From Lachnospiraceae bacterium (lineage in GTDB: Bacteria > Bacillota > Clostridia > Lachnospirales > Lachnospiraceae), in the NCBI GenBank assembly GCA_015057055.1, contig SVFE01000003.1, forward strand, positions 1 to 64,000: 64,000 nt of DNA, written 5' to 3'. The number at the start of each line of letters is the position of its first letter. Positions within the stretch are counted from its first letter, which is position 1. Made by a program: the position numbers and the translations under genes. The notes under the pieces are model-generated. The model was not told the origin of the DNA. It searched no databases and saw only the letters and a program-made list of their open reading frames with translations. Shown piece after piece: positions 5,184 to 63,138 of the stretch.

Positions 5184-5193
5184 AAAGATTGGG

Positions 5194-5208
5194 CTGGTCG
5201 AAAGACCC
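5194..5208 (+). repeat. Short GAAA-tetraloop hairpin motif, copy 1
   Basis: The 15-mer CTGGTCGAAAGACCC occurs identically here and at 9448-9462, in both cases followed within two bases by GGTCCA. It folds as GGTC-GAAA-GACC, a stem capped by a GNRA tetraloop, which points to a function in RNA. Both copies lie in intergenic regions upstream of accessory genes. Confidence 0.5.
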
Positions 5209-5222
5209 TGGTCCACCGAACG

Positions 5223-5277
5223 GCGGAAAATATTTCTTGTGCAAAAATGTTGCATAAAAAATATTTTCCGCTATAAT
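5223..5277 (+). promoter_or_regulatory. Promoter with 13-bp inverted repeat for the ATPase/TOPRIM pair
   Basis: Promoter TTGCAT (5250-5255), 16-bp spacer, TATAAT (5272-5277). A perfect 13-bp inverted repeat, GCGGAAAATATTT (5223-5235) and AAATATTTTCCGC (5259-5271), places its right arm exactly in the spacer between -35 and -10. A dimeric regulator bound here would block RNA polymerase. No regulator gene is adjacent, so it may be the ATPase/TOPRIM complex itself or a distant factor. Confidence 0.7.
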
Positions 5278-5311: not shown

Positions 5312-6589
5312 ATGATTATAGAGATTAGAGCAAAAAATTGTTTCGCATTTGAAGAGGAAATCAGCTTTTCCATGAAAGCGGATATGAGAAACAAGAAGTT
5401 TGCATCAAATGTTCATAGAGAGAATAATTTCAACGTACTGAAGACTGCCGGTGTTTATGGTCCTAACAATGTAGGAAAAACATGCCTTGTGAAATGTATC
5501 AGAGCAATTAAGAGTGTTTTGTTAGATAAGGAAAGCGGGTTGCTTTGTAATATATTTTCAAACGATGAAGTATGTCAATTGGGAGTGACATTTTTATCTT
5601 TGGGAAGAAAGTTTTCATATGATTTTTGGTACAATGCAAAGACCGGAGAATATGTGTATGAATCTTTTACAGAAATATTAAAAGACCAATATGGTAATGA
5701 AAAAGAAGTTCTTTGGTTAAAGCGAGATACCATAAAAGAAGAATATTACTGTATTGATGAAGATGCGCAGAAGATGATGTCTATTATTTCAAAGAATAAC
5801 TTGTTCTGCTACTTAGTAGATACAACAAAGTTTGAATCTTTGAACGAGATGAAAAATATCTTAGTCGGTTTTGCGGAAAAGATTGATATCATTAACATGA
5901 ATAATATTCCTATGAAGCATACAATCGAATTGCTGAAGAACAGAAATAATATTCAGGAAAAGATTATAGAGTTTATTAAGAATGCAGATTTGTATATGGA
6001 TGATTTTAGGTATGTCGGTGAAGATAATCTTCAAATAGAGGCAATTGATGAAGTCGGAAAACCGGAAGAAAAAGCGTTAGATATTCCTGAAAATATCATG
6101 GACCAAATACGATTGGTTTCAACATATAAGGGAGTTCCTGTTCCCAGTATGATATTTGATTCTACCGGAACCAAGAAGATTGCTGCAATAGCAAGCTATG
6201 TGATTGAAGCATTGGAAGAAGGCCGATACTTGGTTGTGGATGAATTGGACAGCAGTATTCATTTCAAACTGACAAGAGCTATCGTTGCATTATTTAATAA
6301 TGAGCTTAACACCAATGCACAGATGATTTTTACGGTTCATGATATTAATCTGATGGATTGTAAGAGAATGTTTAGAAAAGAGCAGATATGGTTTGTTCAC
6401 AAGGATGAAGAAGGCGTATATGTGTATTCGCTTGCAGATTTTACAGCGCAGGAAGGGGTGCGGGATACCACAGATGTTATGGAGAAATATAGGAAGGGGG
6501 CACTTGGCGCACTTCCTGATCCTGAATTGATAAAATCACTCCTGAGTATCAAAGGAAATGCGAAGGGAGTGGTTGCCGATGCAGAATAA
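5312..6589 (+). CDS. AAA family ATPase, AbiLi/RloA-like (putative defence)
   Basis: A 425-residue ABC/SMC-related AAA ATPase of the AAA_15/AAA_21 type. Walker A is GPNNVGKT (residues 50-57), Walker B 'YLVVDELDSS' lies near 305-313, and the switch histidine is in 'IFTVHDINL'. A helical insertion sits between them. This is the architecture of OLD-family and AbiL/RloA abortive-infection ATPases. The start is fixed by AGGAGG eight bases upstream. The stop overlaps the following TOPRIM-like gene by 11 bp. Base composition is AT-richer than the flanking genes, in keeping with transfer. Assignment to phage defence comes from family and partner, not from direct evidence. Confidence 0.75.
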   Translation: MIIEIRAKNCFAFEEEISFSMKADMRNKKFASNVHRENNFNVLKTAGVYGPNNVGKTCLVKCIRAIKSVLLDKESGLLCNIFSNDEVCQLGVTFLSLGRKFSYDFWYNAKTGEYVYESFTEILKDQYGNEKEVLWLKRDTIKEEYYCIDEDAQKMMSIISKNNLFCYLVDTTKFESLNEMKNILVGFAEKIDIINMNNIPMKHTIELLKNRNNIQEKIIEFIKNADLYMDDFRYVGEDNLQIEAIDEVGKPEEKALDIPENIMDQIRLVSTYKGVPVPSMIFDSTGTKKIAAIASYVIEALEEGRYLVVDELDSSIHFKLTRAIVALFNNELNTNAQMIFTVHDINLMDCKRMFRKEQIWFVHKDEEGVYVYSLADFTAQEGVRDTTDVMEKYRKGALGALPDPELIKSLLSIKGNAKGVVADAE

Positions 6590-7214
6590 ACTTCCTAAGT
6601 TGTTTGATAAGCATAAAATATGTGTTATCTGTGAAGGGAATGAGGAGTATGAATACCTCGAACGTTTAAAGGCATTGAAGGTGTGGGATGCACAGTATGA
6701 AATCATTTCTGATAATGCCGGTGGGAATGGTAATATTCCGGCGAGGTATCAGGACAGCTATCAGAATGGTTCCTATGAATTAGTACTAGTATTTTGCGAT
6801 ACTGAGAAGAAACCGTATGAACAATATGAAGATATTAAACGCAAGATTAATGAGTTTCATGGAGTTGAGAGCGCTGCGGATGAAGTTATTATGTTTGGCA
6901 ATCCATGCACAATGCAGATAATTGCTAAGCATTGGACAGAGGCATTGATTAAGACACCGGCCAAACCGGTAAATGCACCACTAATTGAAGAGTTTACCGG
7001 CGTTCCCAATTACAAAGGAAGAACGGACCAGATTGAAGCAGTTATGGAGCATATTACGGCAGAGAATTATGCACATATGCGTGAGCGAGTGTGCAAGCTT
7101 GAAATGCAGGACACGGTTATAGGAAGTAGTAATTTCGGAAGATTTATGGAATTATTCGAAAGCCGTGATGCGAAGTGGATTGATAGGATTAATGATGAAT
7201 TAGAGGGAGAATAA
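6579..7214 (+). CDS. TOPRIM/RloB-like effector partner of the ATPase
   Basis: A 211-residue protein. 'KICVICEGNEEYEYL' (Glu19) matches the first acidic motif of TOPRIM nucleases and of RloB/AbiLii proteins, and 'VLVFCDTEKKP' (Asp74) supplies the following DxD-like acidic motif after a hydrophobic strand. The rest is helical and not recognised. I chose ATG 6579, which follows AAGGGAGTGG and overlaps the ATPase stop; an in-frame ATG 6558 lies further inside that gene. Overlap and gene order match the AbiLi-AbiLii and RloA-RloB-type pairs, where the ATPase gates a nuclease-like partner. A DUF4276-like or other TOPRIM variant is the main alternative label. Confidence 0.6.
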   Translation: MQNKLPKLFDKHKICVICEGNEEYEYLERLKALKVWDAQYEIISDNAGGNGNIPARYQDSYQNGSYELVLVFCDTEKKPYEQYEDIKRKINEFHGVESAADEVIMFGNPCTMQIIAKHWTEALIKTPAKPVNAPLIEEFTGVPNYKGRTDQIEAVMEHITAENYAHMRERVCKLEMQDTVIGSSNFGRFMELFESRDAKWIDRINDELEGE

Positions 7215-7289: not shown

Positions 7290-7565
7290 GTAATTCAAGA
7301 GAAAAGCGGACCCCGCGGGTCCCGGAAAGGACAAAAGACATGAACACAATGAATCGTATGTTTAAACTCTATAGAGAATACAGTTTTGTTGCGCAGCTCG
7401 ATAAACGCGAGCCGGGCTTTGGCTTTGTATACTCATCTAAGGGTAGGAATAGACGAGAAAATTGTGTGGGAGATATCAGTCGGCAGTGTTAGGCTGCCCG
7501 GAGGATTAGAAACATGTTTTCGGCGTACCGCTTACTCAGGATGGGTAGGCGGTATTTTTATTTTG
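7290..7565 (+). ncRNA. Structured RNA / leader ending in a terminator before rtcB
   Basis: A transcript from the 7255-7283 promoter contains successive hairpins. They are GGACCC/GGGTCC near 7308-7322, GCTCG/CGAGC near 7398-7415, CTCATCTA/TAGACGAG (one mismatch) near 7430-7456, GGCAG/CTGCC near 7482-7498, and a terminator at 7527-7565. A 49-codon frame (MNTMNRMFKLYREYSFVAQLD...) starts at ATG 7340 after AAAGGAC, but its segment 'FVAQLD' resembles spurious frames read through tRNA-like RNA, so I do not call it a gene. No known riboswitch consensus was recognised. It may be an attenuated 5' leader of rtcB, an independent RNA of about 270 nt, or an RNA substrate of the ligase. Confidence 0.5.
7527..7565 (+). 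terminator. Intrinsic terminator 25 bases upstream of rtcB
   Basis: ACCGCTTAC (7527-7535) pairs fully, with one G-U, with GTAGGCGGT (7545-7553), followed by ATTTTTATTTT. Its position between promoter and rtcB start implies either attenuation or a separate upstream RNA. Confidence 0.75.
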
Positions 7566-7589
7566 TAAATGAAAGAAGAGGATAAAGCA

Positions 7590-8795
7590 ATGTTAGAGAT
7601 TAAGGGAAAAGTAAATACAGCTCTTTGCTATGCCTCGGTGATTGAGGACGAGGCCATTGAGCAGATTCGCAGGATGTGCGACTACGAATTTACGGCCGGC
7701 TCCAAGGTGAGAATCATGCCGGACGTGCACGCCGGAAAGGGTTGCACCATCGGCACCACCATGACGGTGACGGACAAGGCAGTGCCCAACGTAGTAGGCG
7801 TGGATATCGGCTGCGGCATGTACACCGTCAACCTTGGCAAGATAGAGATTGATTTTGCGAAACTGGATGAGGCTTGCCACTATGTTCCTTCGGGGATGAA
7901 TGTGTGGCCGGGCAGACAGGAGCATTTTGATTTGCAGCAGCTTCGATGCTTCCGGAATTTGAAGGACAGCAAGCGCTTGGAGCGAAGCCTTGGAACGCTG
8001 GGCGGCGGCAACCACTTCATCGAGGTGGATAAGGCGGCGGATGGCACCAAATATCTGGTCATTCATACCGGCAGCCGCAACCTTGGAAAACAGGTGGCGG
8101 AAATCTACCAGGCATTAGCGGTAGATTTGAACCGCGGCATGGAGGATTATTTCCGGCAGCGGGATGAAATCATCCGCACTTACAAGGAGCAGGGAAGACG
8201 AAGCGAAATTCAGGCGGCGCTGAAGGAAATCGCGTGGAAGAAGGCCAATGGCCCCACCTCCATTCCGGAGGATTTGTGCTACCTGCATGGAACGTATTTG
8301 GAAGACTACCTGGCGGACGTAGAAGTCTGCCAGCAATTTGCGACGAAGAACCGCGAGCTCATTGCGAAGGTCATTATGGACCGCTGCGGTTTCACGGCAT
8401 TGGACGCATTTCACACCATTCATAATTATATTGATACAGATGAAATGATATTACGAAAGGGCGCAATCGCAGCCCACAAAGGAGAAAGAGTGCTGATTCC
8501 AATTAACATGAGGGATGGAAGCGTTCTTGCCGTCGGCAAAGGAAATCCGGAATGGAACTATTCCGCGCCCCATGGCGCAGGCAGGGTGCTCTCCCGAGCG
8601 GGAGCCCGCAAAAACCTGTCGTTAGAGGACTATAAAAAGGCGATGGAGGGAATCTATACAACCTCCGTCAATGAAGACACATTGGACGAGGCGCCCATGG
8701 CATACAAGTCGCTGAGCGACATCATTGACGTCATCGGAGAGTCCGTAGATGTGATAGAAGTATTAAAACCGATTTACAATTTTAAGGCAAACTGA
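7590..8795 (+). CDS. rtcB: RtcB family RNA ligase
   Basis: A 401-residue RtcB, the Mn2+/GTP-dependent ligase that joins RNA 3'-phosphate or 2',3'-cyclic phosphate ends to 5'-OH ends. The metal-binding 'GVDIGCGM' (Asp72, Cys75), 'GGGNHFIE', 'HTGSRNLG' and the guanylylated histidine in 'SAPHGAGRVLSRAGAR' (His328) are all intact, so it should be active. I chose ATG 7590 (MLEIKGKVNT, the usual family start) over ATG 7569, because AGAAGAGG lies between them. No archease gene is visible, as expected for bacterial RtcB. It is flanked upstream by a structured RNA with a terminator and downstream by two hairpins, an XRE regulator and an interrupted tRNA-Glu, all on the same strand. That tRNA is the obvious candidate substrate. 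Confidence 0.92.
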   Translation: MLEIKGKVNTALCYASVIEDEAIEQIRRMCDYEFTAGSKVRIMPDVHAGKGCTIGTTMTVTDKAVPNVVGVDIGCGMYTVNLGKIEIDFAKLDEACHYVPSGMNVWPGRQEHFDLQQLRCFRNLKDSKRLERSLGTLGGGNHFIEVDKAADGTKYLVIHTGSRNLGKQVAEIYQALAVDLNRGMEDYFRQRDEIIRTYKEQGRRSEIQAALKEIAWKKANGPTSIPEDLCYLHGTYLEDYLADVEVCQQFATKNRELIAKVIMDRCGFTALDAFHTIHNYIDTDEMILRKGAIAAHKGERVLIPINMRDGSVLAVGKGNPEWNYSAPHGAGRVLSRAGARKNLSLEDYKKAMEGIYTTSVNEDTLDEAPMAYKSLSDIIDVIGESVDVIEVLKPIYNFKAN

Positions 8796-8808
8796 GCCAT
8801 GCAAAGTA

Positions 8809-8862
8809 CATAAACCATTGGGCTGCGGGGAGTTTACTCATCGGCAGACCGTATGGTTTATG
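8809..8862 (+). ncRNA. Long hairpin between rtcB and the HTH gene
   Basis: CATAAACCAT (8809-8818) pairs perfectly with ATGGTTTATG (8853-8862). Inside, GG-CTGC pairs with GCAG-CC and GAGT with ACTC, giving one long interrupted hairpin that begins 14 bases after the rtcB stop. No T-run follows, so it is not an intrinsic terminator. Confidence 0.55.
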
Positions 8863-8876
8863 CAGACGAATTTGGC

Positions 8877-8927
8877 GAAGCCACATAATCGAGATTATGT
8901 CGCGGCTTCTCCTTGCACGGCCCGTGC
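8877..8927 (+). ncRNA. Two further hairpins before the HTH ribosome-binding site
   Basis: GAAGCC (8877-8882) and ACATAA (8883-8888) pair with TTATGT (8895-8900) and GGCTTC (8904-8909). GCACG (8915-8919) pairs with CGTGC (8923-8927). They end just before AGGAG (8933-8937). They may control translation of the HTH gene, or be RNA processing signals. Confidence 0.45.
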
Positions 8928-8944: not shown

Positions 8945-9193
8945 ATGGCGATTCCAACAATTGACATGGTAGGAACCGGTCAGAATATTCAACGCCTGCG
9001 GCAGGCCGCCGGTGTGTCCGTAAAGGATTTGCAGGACGTATTCGGCTTCTCAACGCCCCAGGCGATTTACAAGTGGCAGCACGGAACGGCCCTGCCCACC
9101 ATCGACAATCTAGTGGTGCTGGCAGCCGTCCTGGGCGTCAAAATCGATGATATTTTGGTAACCACAGATATGCGGGGTTCGGTATCTGCGTGA
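8945..9193 (+). CDS. Small XRE-type helix-turn-helix protein
   Basis: An 82-residue protein that is essentially one XRE/Cro-type DNA-binding domain: 'GQNIQRLRQAAGVSVKDLQDVFG', a recognition-helix region 'STPQAIYKWQHG', then 'LPTIDNLVVLAAVLGVKIDDIL'. No sensor domain. I chose ATG 8945, seven bases after AGGAG, over the upstream in-frame ATG 8897, which would read through a hairpin. It lies between rtcB and the interrupted tRNA-Glu on the same strand, so it could regulate this locus. Small XRE proteins with an unusually long, conserved helix 3-4 segment may also bind RNA, but nothing here proves that. Confidence 0.8.
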   Translation: MAIPTIDMVGTGQNIQRLRQAAGVSVKDLQDVFGFSTPQAIYKWQHGTALPTIDNLVVLAAVLGVKIDDILVTTDMRGSVSA

Positions 9194-9236: not shown

Positions 9237-9362
9237 GGCTCCCTAGTCTAAAGGTTAGGACATCGGCCTTTCAAGCCGAAGATGCTGGGTTCAAGGTCTT
9301 CGTTTCACTTCGGTCGGTGCAGAGCTGAGGTCCCCCGGACCTCATGCACCCCGCGGGAGTCA
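9237..9362 (+). tRNA. tRNA-Glu(UUC) gene interrupted in the T-loop by a hairpin insertion
   Basis: Acceptor GGCTCCC (9237-9243), D-arm GTCTAAAGGTTAGGAC (9246-9261), anticodon arm TCGGC-CTTTCAA-GCCGA (9263-9279, anticodon TTC at 9270-9272), variable AGATG and T-stem 5' strand CTGGG with T-loop TTCAAGG (9285-9296) follow the standard tRNA-Glu pattern. Instead of the T-stem 3' strand, about 53 bases follow. They contain GGTGCA/TGCACC (9316-9321/9345-9350) enclosing TGAGGTCC/GGACCTCA (9326-9333/9337-9344). Only then do CCCGC (9350-9354) and GGGAGTC (9355-9361) complete the T and acceptor stems, with discriminator A 9362; CCA is not encoded. The T-stem is imperfect (C-C at its base, one G-U). A disrupted tRNA relic is the alternative, but both flanks pairing across an ordered hairpin favours an intron. 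Confidence 0.7.
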
Positions 9363-9418: not shown

Positions 9419-9524
9419 AAGAAAACTGTAATGAAATACAGTTTGGCCTGGTCGAAAGACCCGGGTCCATCAGCAGATGGGGAGGTTCTCCATCATTGGC
9501 GGGGGTACACCCGCTTATTTTTGT
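9419..9524 (+). ncRNA. Putative small structured RNA with its own terminator
   Basis: From the 9385-9412 promoter, about 105 nt would be transcribed. It holds hairpins AACTGTA/TACAGTT near 9424-9443, the GGTC-GAAA-GACC tetraloop motif (9450-9461, shared with 5196-5207), GATGGGGA/TCTCCATC near 9476-9494, and terminator GCGGG/CCCGC (9499-9514) with TTATTTTT. The alpha/beta hydrolase start lies 64 bases later. It is either an attenuated leader or a free small RNA. I recognise no known riboswitch consensus. Confidence 0.5.
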
Positions 9525-10427: not shown

Positions 10428-11540
10428 ATGGCATTTAAAATCGTACGAAACGACATTACCAAAATGAAGGTGGATGCGATTGTAAATACGGCAAATGAGG
10501 AGCCGATTTACGCCGAAGGGACGGACACCGCGGTTTACAAAGCAGCGGGAGAAGAACTTCTTTTGGCGGAGCGACGCAAAATCGGTGTCATGAAGGAAGG
10601 CGATGTTGCCATAACGCCAGGCTTTCGTCTTCCTGCAAAATACATCATTCATGCGGTCAGCCCCTATTACATTGACGGGATGCAGGGAGAAGAGGAAAAA
10701 CTTCGCCTGTGTTACCAGCGCAGTCTTAAGCTGGCTTATGAGAATAACTGCAAAAGCATTGCGTTTCCGCTGATTTCCACCGGAAGCTTCGGCTATCCCA
10801 AGGAGGAGGGGATGCGCATTGCCGCTGATGAAATCAATGCTTTTTTGTTGTCCCATGACATGCTGATTTATTTGGTGGTGTTTGACTCGGAATCCACCCG
10901 GTTGGGGCGCAACCTATATCCGGATTTGGAAGCGTATATTGACCAGAATTACGTCGCCGACAAGGGGAGAGAAGAATACGGCATTCCGAACTTTTTGAGA
11001 AGTGCCCAGGCAAGCAGGAGTTGCGCGACTGGGGAAGCTCAGGAGGATTCGACGGACGAATGTTTGTCAGAGTTCGAGGAAACTTCTGAAGAAACGATGC
11101 TTTGTTCGCAGGATGAAGTTACCGGCATTGCGAAGGCTTTGTCGGTCGGGGAACAGCCGATTGAAGAACTGGAAACGGCGCTGGCGGAGCGCATGAAGCA
11201 TTTGTCGGACACATTCCAGCAGTATCTTTTGTATTTGATAGAAGCCAAAGGGCAAACCAACGCGGAGGTATATAATCGGGCAATTATTTCAAAGCAGCTT
11301 TTTTCCAAAATCAAATTAAATCCGGATTACCACCCGGACAAAGCAACGGCCATGCGGCTTTGCGTCGGCGCGCAGTTAAACCTGGACGAGACCAAAGATT
11401 TGCTGGCGCGGGCGGGGTACGCATTGTCCCCCTGTGACAAACGGGATATCATCTTTTCCTTCTTTATCGAGCGGGAAATATTTGACATGATTGAGATTGA
11501 TATCGCCTTGGAAGAGCATGGGCTGACATGCTTTATTTAA
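10428..11540 (+). CDS. Macrodomain protein with C-terminal helical domain
   Basis: A 370-residue protein. Residues 1-165 form a macrodomain: 'KVDAIVNTANEEP' carries the substrate-contacting Asn, 'ADEINAF' and 'SIAFPLISTGSFGYP' the second ligand loop. Macrodomains bind or hydrolyse ADP-ribose on proteins or nucleic acids. An acidic linker (about 195-240) leads to a helical C-terminal domain whose 'ISKQLFSKIKLNPDYHPDK' and 'LNLDETKDLLARAGYALSP' segments resemble an XRE-like fold. Start ATG 10428 follows AAGGAGG. It is followed by a terminator and then VWA and ADP-ribosylglycohydrolase genes, which makes an ADP-ribose signalling or repair role likely. Confidence 0.85.
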   Translation: MAFKIVRNDITKMKVDAIVNTANEEPIYAEGTDTAVYKAAGEELLLAERRKIGVMKEGDVAITPGFRLPAKYIIHAVSPYYIDGMQGEEEKLRLCYQRSLKLAYENNCKSIAFPLISTGSFGYPKEEGMRIAADEINAFLLSHDMLIYLVVFDSESTRLGRNLYPDLEAYIDQNYVADKGREEYGIPNFLRSAQASRSCATGEAQEDSTDECLSEFEETSEETMLCSQDEVTGIAKALSVGEQPIEELETALAERMKHLSDTFQQYLLYLIEAKGQTNAEVYNRAIISKQLFSKIKLNPDYHPDKATAMRLCVGAQLNLDETKDLLARAGYALSPCDKRDIIFSFFIEREIFDMIEIDIALEEHGLTCFI

Positions 11541-11561
11541 TCGAATATCGCAATTTTTCAG

Positions 11562-11591
11562 GGTCGCCTCCAGGGCGACCTTGTTTTTTCC
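11562..11591 (+). terminator. Intrinsic terminator after the macrodomain gene
   Basis: GGTCGCC (11562-11568) pairs with GGCGACC (11574-11580), followed by TTGTTTTTT. Confidence 0.85.
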
Positions 11592-11659
11592 TTCTTGTGC
11601 TATAGTGGGCTCAGAAGCAAAGAAAACCAAACAAACGAAAAGCAAGGAGGAAAATTCAT

Positions 11660-12325
11660 ATGAAGAAAAATTTAACAGAAATCGTATTTATTTTGGACAG
11701 AAGCGGTTCTATGAGAGGGCTGGAGAAAGACACCATCGGCGGATATAACTCCCTGATGGAAAAGCAGAAAAAGGAAGAGGGCGAGGCAATCATTTCCACG
11801 GTGCTTTTTGATGATCGGGCGGAGGTGTTGCACGACCGGGTGAGCCTTGACAAAATCAGTCCAATGACGGAGGAGGAATATTACGTCAGAGGCTGCACAG
11901 CGCTTTTGGATGCAGTGGGCGGCGCCATTCACCATATCGGGAATGTCCATAAATACGCGCGGGAAGAAGACCGCCCGGAGAAAACCTTATTTATCATAAC
12001 CACCGACGGGCAGGAAAATGCCAGCAAGAAATATTCCTACGACAAGGTAAAAAAGATGGTGGAGCGGCAGAAGAAAAAGTTTGGCTGGGAGTTCTTGTTC
12101 CTGGGTGCCAACATTGACGCGGTGGGAGAAGCGGCCCGCTTTGGAATCCAGGCCAACCGCGCCGTAAAATATGAGTGCGACGAGGTCGGCACGGAGTTGA
12201 ATTACCATGTGCTGAGCAAAACCGTAAGCAAAGTGAGAAGTTGCGCCGTTTGTGATATGGATGCGATATTGGACGACGATTGGCAGAAGGAAATCGAAGA
12301 AGATTATAAGAAGAGACATAAGTAA
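11660..12325 (+). CDS. von Willebrand factor A (TerY-like) protein
   Basis: A 221-residue cytosolic VWA domain protein. The metal-ion-dependent adhesion site is intact: DRSGSM (residues 13-18), a Thr in 'RGCTALLDAVG' and an Asp in 'FIITTDGQENAS'. This matches TerY-type soluble VWA proteins, which act as Mg2+-dependent scaffolds in tellurite-resistance/stress and several defence modules. It has no signal peptide. AAGGAGG precedes ATG 11660. It sits 18 bp upstream of an ADP-ribosylglycohydrolase gene and downstream of a macrodomain gene, so it may scaffold an ADP-ribose-handling complex; that is inference. Confidence 0.85.
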   Translation: MKKNLTEIVFILDRSGSMRGLEKDTIGGYNSLMEKQKKEEGEAIISTVLFDDRAEVLHDRVSLDKISPMTEEEYYVRGCTALLDAVGGAIHHIGNVHKYAREEDRPEKTLFIITTDGQENASKKYSYDKVKKMVERQKKKFGWEFLFLGANIDAVGEAARFGIQANRAVKYECDEVGTELNYHVLSKTVSKVRSCAVCDMDAILDDDWQKEIEEDYKKRHK

Positions 12326-12343
12326 TGTGAGAGGAGAGGACGA

Positions 12344-13327
12344 ATGGAAAATACAAACAAATGGCGCAGTGGCATCATGGGTGTGGTGGTCGGTGACGCG
12401 CTGGGATTGCCGGTGCAATTTTTATCCAGGGCGGAGGTCTTGCGGGAACCGGTCACAAAGATGCAAGGATATGGGACATTTCATATGCCGGAGGGCACCT
12501 GGTCCGATGACGGCAGCATGACGATGGCGACGATATGTAGTTTGTCGGAACAAAAGAAACTGGATTTTGCGGACATCATGGAGCGTTTTGTGGCCTGGGA
12601 ATATCAGGGCGAATATACGCCTTTTGGCAAAGCATTTGACCAGGGGCGGACCTGCCTTGCAGCGATTTATAATTACAAGAATGGGATGGGTGTTGCGACT
12701 TGTGGGCTGACGGATGAACGCTCCAACGGAAACGGTTCCCTGATGCGGATTCTACCGGTCTGCCTTTACGCATATGAAAAAATGCAAAAGAAAGAAATGT
12801 CGGAGAAGAAGGCGCTTGCTGCCATTCATCAGGCGTCGGCCCTGACCCATGCACATATGCGTTCCCAAATGGGTTGTGGATTTTACTTCTTCATGACAAA
12901 AGCAATCCTTGATGGGACGGGCACCTTGCAGGAATGTCTGCAAAAAGGCGTCGATGATGCGGTGCGCTTTTATCATAAAGATGTGCGGAATTGGACACAG
13001 CTGGCGCATTACGGGCGGTTGTTTCACTTGTCTGAGTTCGCCGTGGTGCCTTCGGAGGAAATCCGCAGCACCGGCTATATTGTAGATAGTCTGGAAGCGG
13101 CGGTGTGGAGCCTCATTACCACCCAAAGTTTCAAAGAGGCCGCGCTCAAAGCCGTCAATCTCGGCGGCGATACAGACACCATCGGCGCGATTGCCTGCGG
13201 CCTGGCCGGTCTTTACTACGGGTATGAAAGTATCCCGAAAGCGTGGCTGGAGGTGATTAAAAAAAGAGAGTGGATAGAAGCGGTGTGCGAGGGGATGGAC
13301 AGTCGCGATTTGGCAGATGTTTTATAG
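12344..13327 (+). CDS. ADP-ribosylglycohydrolase (DraG/ARH family)
   Basis: A 327-residue member of the ADP-ribosyl-hydrolase fold. Diagnostic motifs are 'GVVVGDALGLP', 'TWSDDGSMTMA' (metal-binding Asp pair), 'RSNGNGSLMRILP', and 'NLGGDTDTIGAIACGLAGLYYG', which supplies the second dinuclear Mg site. All metal ligands appear intact. Such enzymes remove ADP-ribose from proteins, or in some cases from nucleic acids or small metabolites. GAGGAGAGG lies upstream of ATG 12344. No ADP-ribosyltransferase gene is visible in the window, so the modification it reverses, if any, comes from elsewhere, possibly from a phage or competitor. Confidence 0.9.
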   Translation: MENTNKWRSGIMGVVVGDALGLPVQFLSRAEVLREPVTKMQGYGTFHMPEGTWSDDGSMTMATICSLSEQKKLDFADIMERFVAWEYQGEYTPFGKAFDQGRTCLAAIYNYKNGMGVATCGLTDERSNGNGSLMRILPVCLYAYEKMQKKEMSEKKALAAIHQASALTHAHMRSQMGCGFYFFMTKAILDGTGTLQECLQKGVDDAVRFYHKDVRNWTQLAHYGRLFHLSEFAVVPSEEIRSTGYIVDSLEAAVWSLITTQSFKEAALKAVNLGGDTDTIGAIACGLAGLYYGYESIPKAWLEVIKKREWIEAVCEGMDSRDLADVL

Positions 13328-62869: not shown

Positions 62870-63138
62870 TGCTGTGGCATGATAGCTATGAAGCGTGAGG
62901 TTGCTGTTACGGCGAGAGCTTTAACAGGTTTTCCGTGGAGCGAATGTCAATGACGGATTATTCCGTGATAATATGACGACAAGTCACTGTACAAATACGA
63001 AACAGTCTACGATGCAGTAGAAACGACGTGTGTGAAAGCATACGGGATGTCATCCCTTAGGACACACACGGGAAAGTGTACAGTCACCAGCTTGTCGTGC
63101 TTTAAAAATCAAAGTACGAAAAGGAGGCGACTTTTTTT
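62870..63138 (+). promoter_or_regulatory. Structured leader of the S10 operon
   Basis: ACGACAAG and ACTGTACA (62976-62983, 62986-62993) pair with TGTACAGT and CTTGTCGT (63077-63084, 63091-63098). CGTGTGTG (63027-63034) pairs with CACACACG (63063-63070), enclosing GGGATG/CATCCC. This makes a large nested structure ending just before the rpsJ ribosome-binding site. Feedback by a ribosomal protein of the operon, L4 in the classical case, is the likely purpose; the binding protein is not shown here. Confidence 0.65.

Follow-up and report, generated by a model that had tools for sequence, protein, structure and literature searches.

A dispersed palindromic repeat in the T-loop of a tRNA-Glu gene of an rtcB-HTH-tRNA array module in Lachnospiraceae

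An interrupted tRNA-Glu gene next to rtcB

The window, a stretch of 64,000 nucleotides from a Lachnospiraceae bacterium, carries on its forward strand a leader hairpin, rtcB, a gene for a small HTH protein and a tRNA gene, in that order (Table 1). The initial annotation had described the last of these as a tRNA-Glu(UUC) gene with a hairpin insertion in the T-loop, and this description held base by base: the insert, about 55 nt in length, contains a nested hairpin, and beyond it CCCGC and GGGAGTC pair to close the T-stem and the acceptor. With the insert left out, 20 of 21 cloverleaf pairs were standard; the single mismatch, at 49-65, was also seen in uninterrupted array homologues at loci L162, L092 and L269, in a comparison from which rows offset by a base or of wrong length had been left out.

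Table 1. Features of the interrupted tRNA gene and its surroundings, by position in the window
Feature	Coordinates	Strand	Basis or remark
Two DUF3800-XI RNAs (RF02975)	5190-5237 and 9444-9491		flank the AbiL-rtcB-HTH-tRNA stretch, cassette-like
AbiLi/AbiLii-like pair	5312-6589 and 6558-7214		PADLOC; directly upstream of rtcB; the first frame also matches AriA, more weakly
Leader hairpin, then T-run (TACCGC..GCGGTATTTTTAT)	7526-7561	+	upstream of rtcB
rtcB, 408-aa protein of the RtcB RNA ligase family	7569-8795	+	Pfam (PF01139, 189 bits); orthologues in relatives
Spacer between rtcB and HTH gene	8796-8900		looks structured (CATAAACCAT..ATGGTTTATG)
82-aa HTH_3 (Cro/C1-type) protein, conserved module marker	8945-9193	+	Pfam; related loci
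5' part of tRNA-Glu(UUC)-like gene	9237-9295	+	cloverleaf reading, Rfam tRNA model, ARAGORN after excision
Acceptor 5' strand GGCTCCC	9237-9243	+	followed by D-arm and anticodon arm
Anticodon arm, loop CTTTCAA, anticodon UUC	within 9237-9295	+
T-stem 5' strand	9285-9289	+
T-loop TTCAAG	9290-9295	+
Insert in T-loop, a dispersed palindromic repeat	9296-9350	+	model R1, 21 copies; boundaries uncertain by about 1 base, placed by empty/filled comparison in relatives
Insert 5' foot, conserved (GTCTTCGTTTCACTTCGGTC)	5' end of 9296-9350	+	precedes nested hairpin
Insert basal helix GGTGCA/TGCACC	9316-9321/9345-9350	+
Insert inner helix TGAGGTCC/GGACCTCA	9326-9333/9337-9344	+
3' part of tRNA	9351-9362	+	rest of T-stem 3' strand, acceptor, discriminator
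T-stem 3' strand CCCGC	9350-9354	+	closes T-stem
Acceptor 3' strand GGGAGTC	9355-9361	+	discriminator A at 9362
Macro-domain protein (Pfam), then von Willebrand-like and ADP-ribosylglycohydrolase-like frames (by eye)	10428-13327
S10-Clostridia ribosomal protein leader (RF03136)	62880-62971

In a 201-base search, the Rfam tRNA model aligned 9237-9362 at 38.0 bits (gathering threshold 29), skipping 55 nt in the T-loop. The gene was not listed by the Rfam gathering scan of the full 64-kb window, and a whole-genome scan with the tRNA model returned only 9237-9293, at 28 bits and under the cut-off. ARAGORN missed the interrupted tRNA in the window as it stands and called tRNA-Glu(ttc) once the insert was removed. 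Fold z-scores against shuffles were modest: two cuts of the gene scored -2.11 and -2.58, and the insert -2.45. Elsewhere in the same genome, 31 ordinary tRNA matches exceeded the cut-off, Glu-UUC and Glu-CUC among them. Group I introns have a conserved catalytic core and are typically longer than 200 nt; the insert, at 55 nt and unmatched by any Rfam group I model in the scan of the window and in the 201-base search, is not one, as had been stated from the outset. No Rfam family at all matched the insert in the window or at 19 relative loci at the thresholds used.

The rtcB-HTH-tRNA array module

The adjoining rtcB, correctly noted at first sight, proved to be a conserved neighbour of such tRNA genes in relatives. 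With a cut-off of E <= 1e-16, 64 of 299 genomes of the family encoded the small HTH protein, and 30 loci out of these 64 matching genomes were surveyed with about 1.5 kb per side where the contig allowed. rtcB was present in 18 of the 30 and tRNA genes in 17, the latter including Lys, Glu-UUC, Glu-CUC, His, Tyr, Ser and Arg. The repeat that forms the insert occurred in six (five by pattern, plus L299 on inspection), while 11 of the 17 loci with tRNAs had no insert in the stretch covered. Both rtcB and tRNAs were found at nine loci, with an interrupted tRNA in two, the window and L299, and in none of the remaining seven. Among 13 other rtcB loci of the genus, the HTH protein was encoded at six and, in the stretch covered, tRNAs at three, one of which had seven. 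RtcB was absent from 20 of 20 insert loci taken from other genomes (7.5-19 kb, some cut by contig ends), and a scan of 274 loci, excluding the own genome and loci fetched with rtcB, recovered RtcB only at L008, where no insert was seen, and at L225, where RtcB lies at the margin of a locus with an insert. The association with rtcB that had been proposed is thus real for the tRNA array and does not extend to the insert; it is a property of an older rtcB-HTH-tRNA-array module.

A leader resembling that of the window by eye precedes rtcB in L299 and tRNA-Lys in L138, L155 and L162, and may act in an attenuator-like manner. RtcB is otherwise described from RNA-repair operons with their own regulation, in which damaged tRNA is a theme (PMC7790460); as far as that account describes them, the neighbours differ here, where rtcB sits beside the gene for a small HTH protein and an array of accessory tRNAs.

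Several further features of these loci were recorded. Tracts of 21, 18 and 10 tRNAs (ARAGORN) with a related HTH gene occur at L093, L094 and L306, and are apparently big versions of the module. At L248, L249 and L250, loci of three relatives, an open frame of at least 476 codons (MKT.FFARDIRGG..) enters from the locus edge upstream of rtcB; it may resemble Ro60/DUF2828-type proteins. In the window itself, the spacer between rtcB and the HTH gene could, at a guess, be a small RNA, perhaps Y-RNA-like, and the macro-domain region downstream of the tRNA may possibly form part of a wider RNA-repair or ADP-ribose neighbourhood. The AbiLi/AbiLii-like pair was considered as a conserved unit with rtcB, and this was rejected, the pair being found in no other locus examined.

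A family-wide repeat and its insertion sites

When the gene was compared by BLAST with 98 relatives, many matches covered the insert alone, mostly at 75-85% identity. In the aligned copies, the repeat is about 54-55 nt long and consists of a conserved foot of 20 nt, roughly GTCTNCGCTYCGCTYCGGTC, and a bulged hairpin; compensatory changes were seen at 8 of 14 insert pairs in some copies. An outer stem common to all copies was rejected, with a mean of 3.69 pairs against 3.58 in shuffles. A covariance model (R1) was built from an alignment (A1) of 21 of 27 copies, six near-duplicate or odd copies having been omitted by hand, and matched 178 of 397 Lachnospiraceae genomes, with at least 13 matches in several. 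Within the order, 23 of 246 genomes had matches, 20 in the own family and 3 in two other families. Judged by their flanks, 183 copies were distinct. Copy number by model R1 ranged from 26 in G655, 15 in G335 and 12 in G658 to four in G359, three in G657, two in G046 and one in G656; the own genome has a single copy, that in the window. A pattern scan of named genomes gave at least 120 matches and, among the 80 matches listed, most were from Lachnospiraceae, the others including other Clostridia. The pattern was also present on six viral contigs, and a stricter version on none.

For larger counts, a set of 196 copies was assembled with at most two mismatches to the foot pattern and at least 5/6 basal pairs, duplicates being merged by flank and 13 copies near locus ends omitted. 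Of these copies, 50 lay in long open stretches in place and 15 more only after excision, against controls of 116 of at most 196 nearby positions.

The T-loop motif is strongly over-represented before the repeat, although most copies lie elsewhere. In a flank-blind scan, GGTTCR occurred in the last 10 nt before the foot in 16 of 119 distinct copies, compared with 0-2 in 29 control windows, and in 12 of 111 copies compared with 0-1 when four array loci were left out; the other 103 of the 119 copies were not beside the motif. The larger set gave 49 of 196, a value inflated by how loci were fetched: some came from BLAST with the tRNA itself, and others from a search for GGTTCRA, which contributed 15 copies, the motif preceding 11 of them.

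Homologous loci with tRNA flanks around a variable insert, on which the initial annotation had made its reading depend, were found in relatives, and empty and filled orthologous sites were available for Lys, Glu-UUC, Glu-CUC, His, Ser and Tyr. At the Lys site, the empty CGAG-T-CCCAT becomes CGAG-[GTCT..GCAC]-CCCAT when filled, and the same kind of replacement was seen for Glu-UUC (L162 versus L155) and Glu-CUC (L269 versus L003). An antisense copy in His is accompanied by the loss of TT, and an anticodon-stem copy in Ser by the loss of ACT. Judging from these alignments, insertion in these tRNAs replaces 1-3 nt (give or take one base for alignment) without target duplication. In the Tyr gene of L269, a sense copy occupies the T-loop and an antisense one lies near the anticodon arm. 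At L322, Glu is interrupted in antisense orientation and Ser in its anticodon stem. For the window's own tRNA no empty orthologue was found, so that the empty/filled evidence comes from relatives alone.

Sense copies in T-loops recur in different tRNAs of related arrays: in Glu-UUC (the window, L138, L155 and L365), Glu-CUC (L092, L155 and L162), Lys (L155 and L299), Tyr (L269, and a truncated tRNA at L339), Cys (L094) and, as the weakest case, Leu (L093), which was restored with one of nine trial junctions. Excision restored a tRNA for 12 of the 196 copies, none of which is an ordinary tRNA gene outside an array of the HTH-linked type; the Tyr copies were left unrestored in this trial since that tRNA holds two inserts. 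All restorable insertions lie in loci with the HTH gene except L215, where the contig ends inside the array, and the gene is distant in L093 (51% identity) and L094 (41%). The window insert is of a 54-nt type and the Glu-CUC insert of L092, L155 and L162 of a 52-nt type, and since the types differ, this T-loop position probably received an insert on more than one occasion. The near relative of the window's insert at L299 sits in tRNA-Lys, and the rtcB of L299 is among the two closest to that of the window (89%). Genomes with few copies also have them in T-loops: the single copy of G656 lies in a Glu T-loop, and G046, G657 and G359 each have at least one at this position.

The 3' part of the array and the downstream flank are almost identical in G657 and G335, including Tyr with its antisense insert, which suggests that arrays or parts of them recently moved between genomes. 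Similarity between L339 (G657) and L330 (G335) ends at the antisense repeat in Tyr, which may be a recombination point. Other copies, at L101, L107, L108, L109, L100, L103 and L104, lie near tRNA-Gly or tRNA-Pro genes, by eye in apparent antisense remnants of tRNA 3' ends that are perhaps old integration sites.

In the journal literature searched, with bioRxiv preprints outside its scope, we found no description of the repeat, of bacterial tRNAs interrupted in the T-loop or of a module combining rtcB, the HTH gene and tRNAs; the reports of T-loop-interrupted bacterial tRNAs near rtcB to which the initial annotation had alluded were likewise not encountered. Rickettsia palindromic elements, also mentioned in the REP literature, are palindromes that insert inside genes. 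The present repeat enters genes too, in a different lineage; we know of no T-loop insertion in array tRNAs for the Rickettsia elements. REP elements comprise GTAG- and CGTC-tagged palindromic repeats, and the CGTC type has no known dedicated transposase according to the account in PMC3733652. As far as they are described there, these are likewise short dispersed hairpins that carry a conserved, unpaired tag at one of their ends and are in some cases located within genes, whereas the present repeat is larger (54-55 nt), has a different foot and is over-represented at T-loop motifs. A word search of the main text of PMC3733652 found no Firmicutes, Clostridi-, Eubacterium, Roseburia or Butyrivibrio. 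REP elements with a RAYT transposase flank a Y1 transposase gene, but no link to Y1 proteins was found for our repeat: of the 23 Y1_Tnp loci in 13 genomes searched for a partner transposase, just one lies within about 1.5 kb of a copy, and Y1/RAYT mobilisation was rejected on this count.

Probable disruption, possible splicing or possible retention of the T-arm

A dispersed repeat, over-represented at T-loop motifs, is inserted here in a tRNA of an accessory array. We consider it probable that the repeat is mobile and that the accessory tRNA of the rtcB-HTH-tRNA module which it interrupts is dispensable, and the window's tRNA-Glu is most likely not matured into a working tRNA. The tRNA-Glu would be one member of the accessory array in the conserved module, which a family-wide miniature palindromic repeat would have entered as DNA, as it appears to do with over-representation just 3' of GGTTCR. 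Copies in housekeeping tRNAs would be harmful, and none were found among the copies examined; those in dispensable array tRNAs and tRNA-like remnants would survive. At a guess, the repeat could be moved as a single-stranded hairpin, in the manner of REP/IS200-type elements. Similar copies were numerous at unrelated positions, and both empty and filled orthologous sites were found, in keeping with mobility. Against it, a lone surviving copy in a T-loop, as in the own genome and G656, is odd for an active element, and against disruption, interrupted exons keep 20 of 21 pairs, like their empty homologues. The failure to find a partner transposase and the majority of copies away from the T-loop motif also count against this reading. 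Comparison of L155 with L162 shows 2 differing bases among the 72 of the interrupted Glu-CUC exons, and 19 differing fourfold sites out of 33 in the adjacent HTH genes. This low divergence could mean selection, with recent array recombination as an alternative, and is not decisive; selection was set aside in view of the recent array transfer between G657 and G335.

The initial annotation had instead read the insert as an intron ligated by RtcB, which we now think unlikely. On that reading, cleavage by an endonuclease at the base of the hairpin would yield a 2',3'-cyclic phosphate end and a 5'-OH end, and TTCAAGG would then be joined to CCCGC by the RtcB encoded alongside, which restores a T-loop of 7 nt. 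RtcB-joined tRNA introns occur in archaea and animals, and the window resembles these in having an RtcB family protein adjacent to a tRNA split by a short insert. Removal of some 53-55 nt does restore a good tRNA, rtcB is a conserved neighbour of this type of array, sense T-loop copies recur in different tRNAs with well conserved exons, and genomes with one to three copies keep one in a T-loop. Unlike the archaeal and animal introns, the insert is a dispersed repeat that lies mostly outside tRNAs, with few copies restoring one on excision, and rather than being confined to the sense strand of RNA genes, it is found antisense in His, Tyr and Glu and in the anticodon stem of Ser in such arrays. 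Splicing of a sense intron cannot explain the antisense and anticodon-stem copies, and disruption is more likely than splicing. Moreover, tRNA bases are lost on insertion, seven of the nine loci that combine rtcB with tRNAs lack an interrupted tRNA, and L138, L155 and L162 have interrupted tRNAs without RtcB within 8 kb (about 1-6 kb upstream of the array covered); RtcB is also absent from the 20 insert loci of other genomes described above. The tRNA splicing endonuclease domain (PF01974) was not found over the cut-off in any of seven genomes, the own included, while four archaeal controls were positive; G000 gave a match of 18.5 bits, with stops and below the 27-bit cut-off. Any cutting could still be due to a nuclease unrelated to PF01974. 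Copies are also rarer in long open stretches than nearby control positions are, and an ordinary tRNA-Glu(UUC) is present in the own genome. The alternative stem CGAAGA/TCTTCG, put forward as a means of exposing the splice sites, does exist in the window, but its full six-base match is present in only 2 of 10 T-loop-interrupted tRNAs compared. We would give a similarly small chance to the idea that a mobile hairpin favouring T-loops has come, by tolerance or by co-option, to serve as a small intron joined by RtcB in accessory arrays co-encoded with rtcB.

Very unlikely, to our minds, is a purposeful retention of the extended T-arm, in which an array tRNA that is neither spliced nor active in translation would work as a decoy, as a sensor or as a signal for processing, perhaps on behalf of the RtcB/HTH module. 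Such a role would fit the covarying helices of the insert, the otherwise conserved module and the T-loop copies that remain in genomes with one to four copies in all, and is opposed by the variable position and orientation of the insert and by its absence from 11 of 17 HTH loci with tRNAs in the stretch covered.

Returning to the repeat itself, the locus brings out a very common Lachnospiraceae repeat family with no Rfam match and not found in the literature searched, which is over-represented at T-loops and whose empty and filled sites are clean enough for working out its mobility. It also brings out as conserved an rtcB-HTH-tRNA-array module, with Lys, Glu, His, Tyr, Ser and other tRNAs, that looks like an RNA-damage response with spare tRNAs. 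Finally, the question whether RtcB is used for tRNA splicing in any bacterium can be put to a sharp test here. Were a mobile hairpin indeed to act as an intron joined by RtcB, bacteria would have a tRNA intron that derives from a mobile element and is spliced by protein, not by itself.
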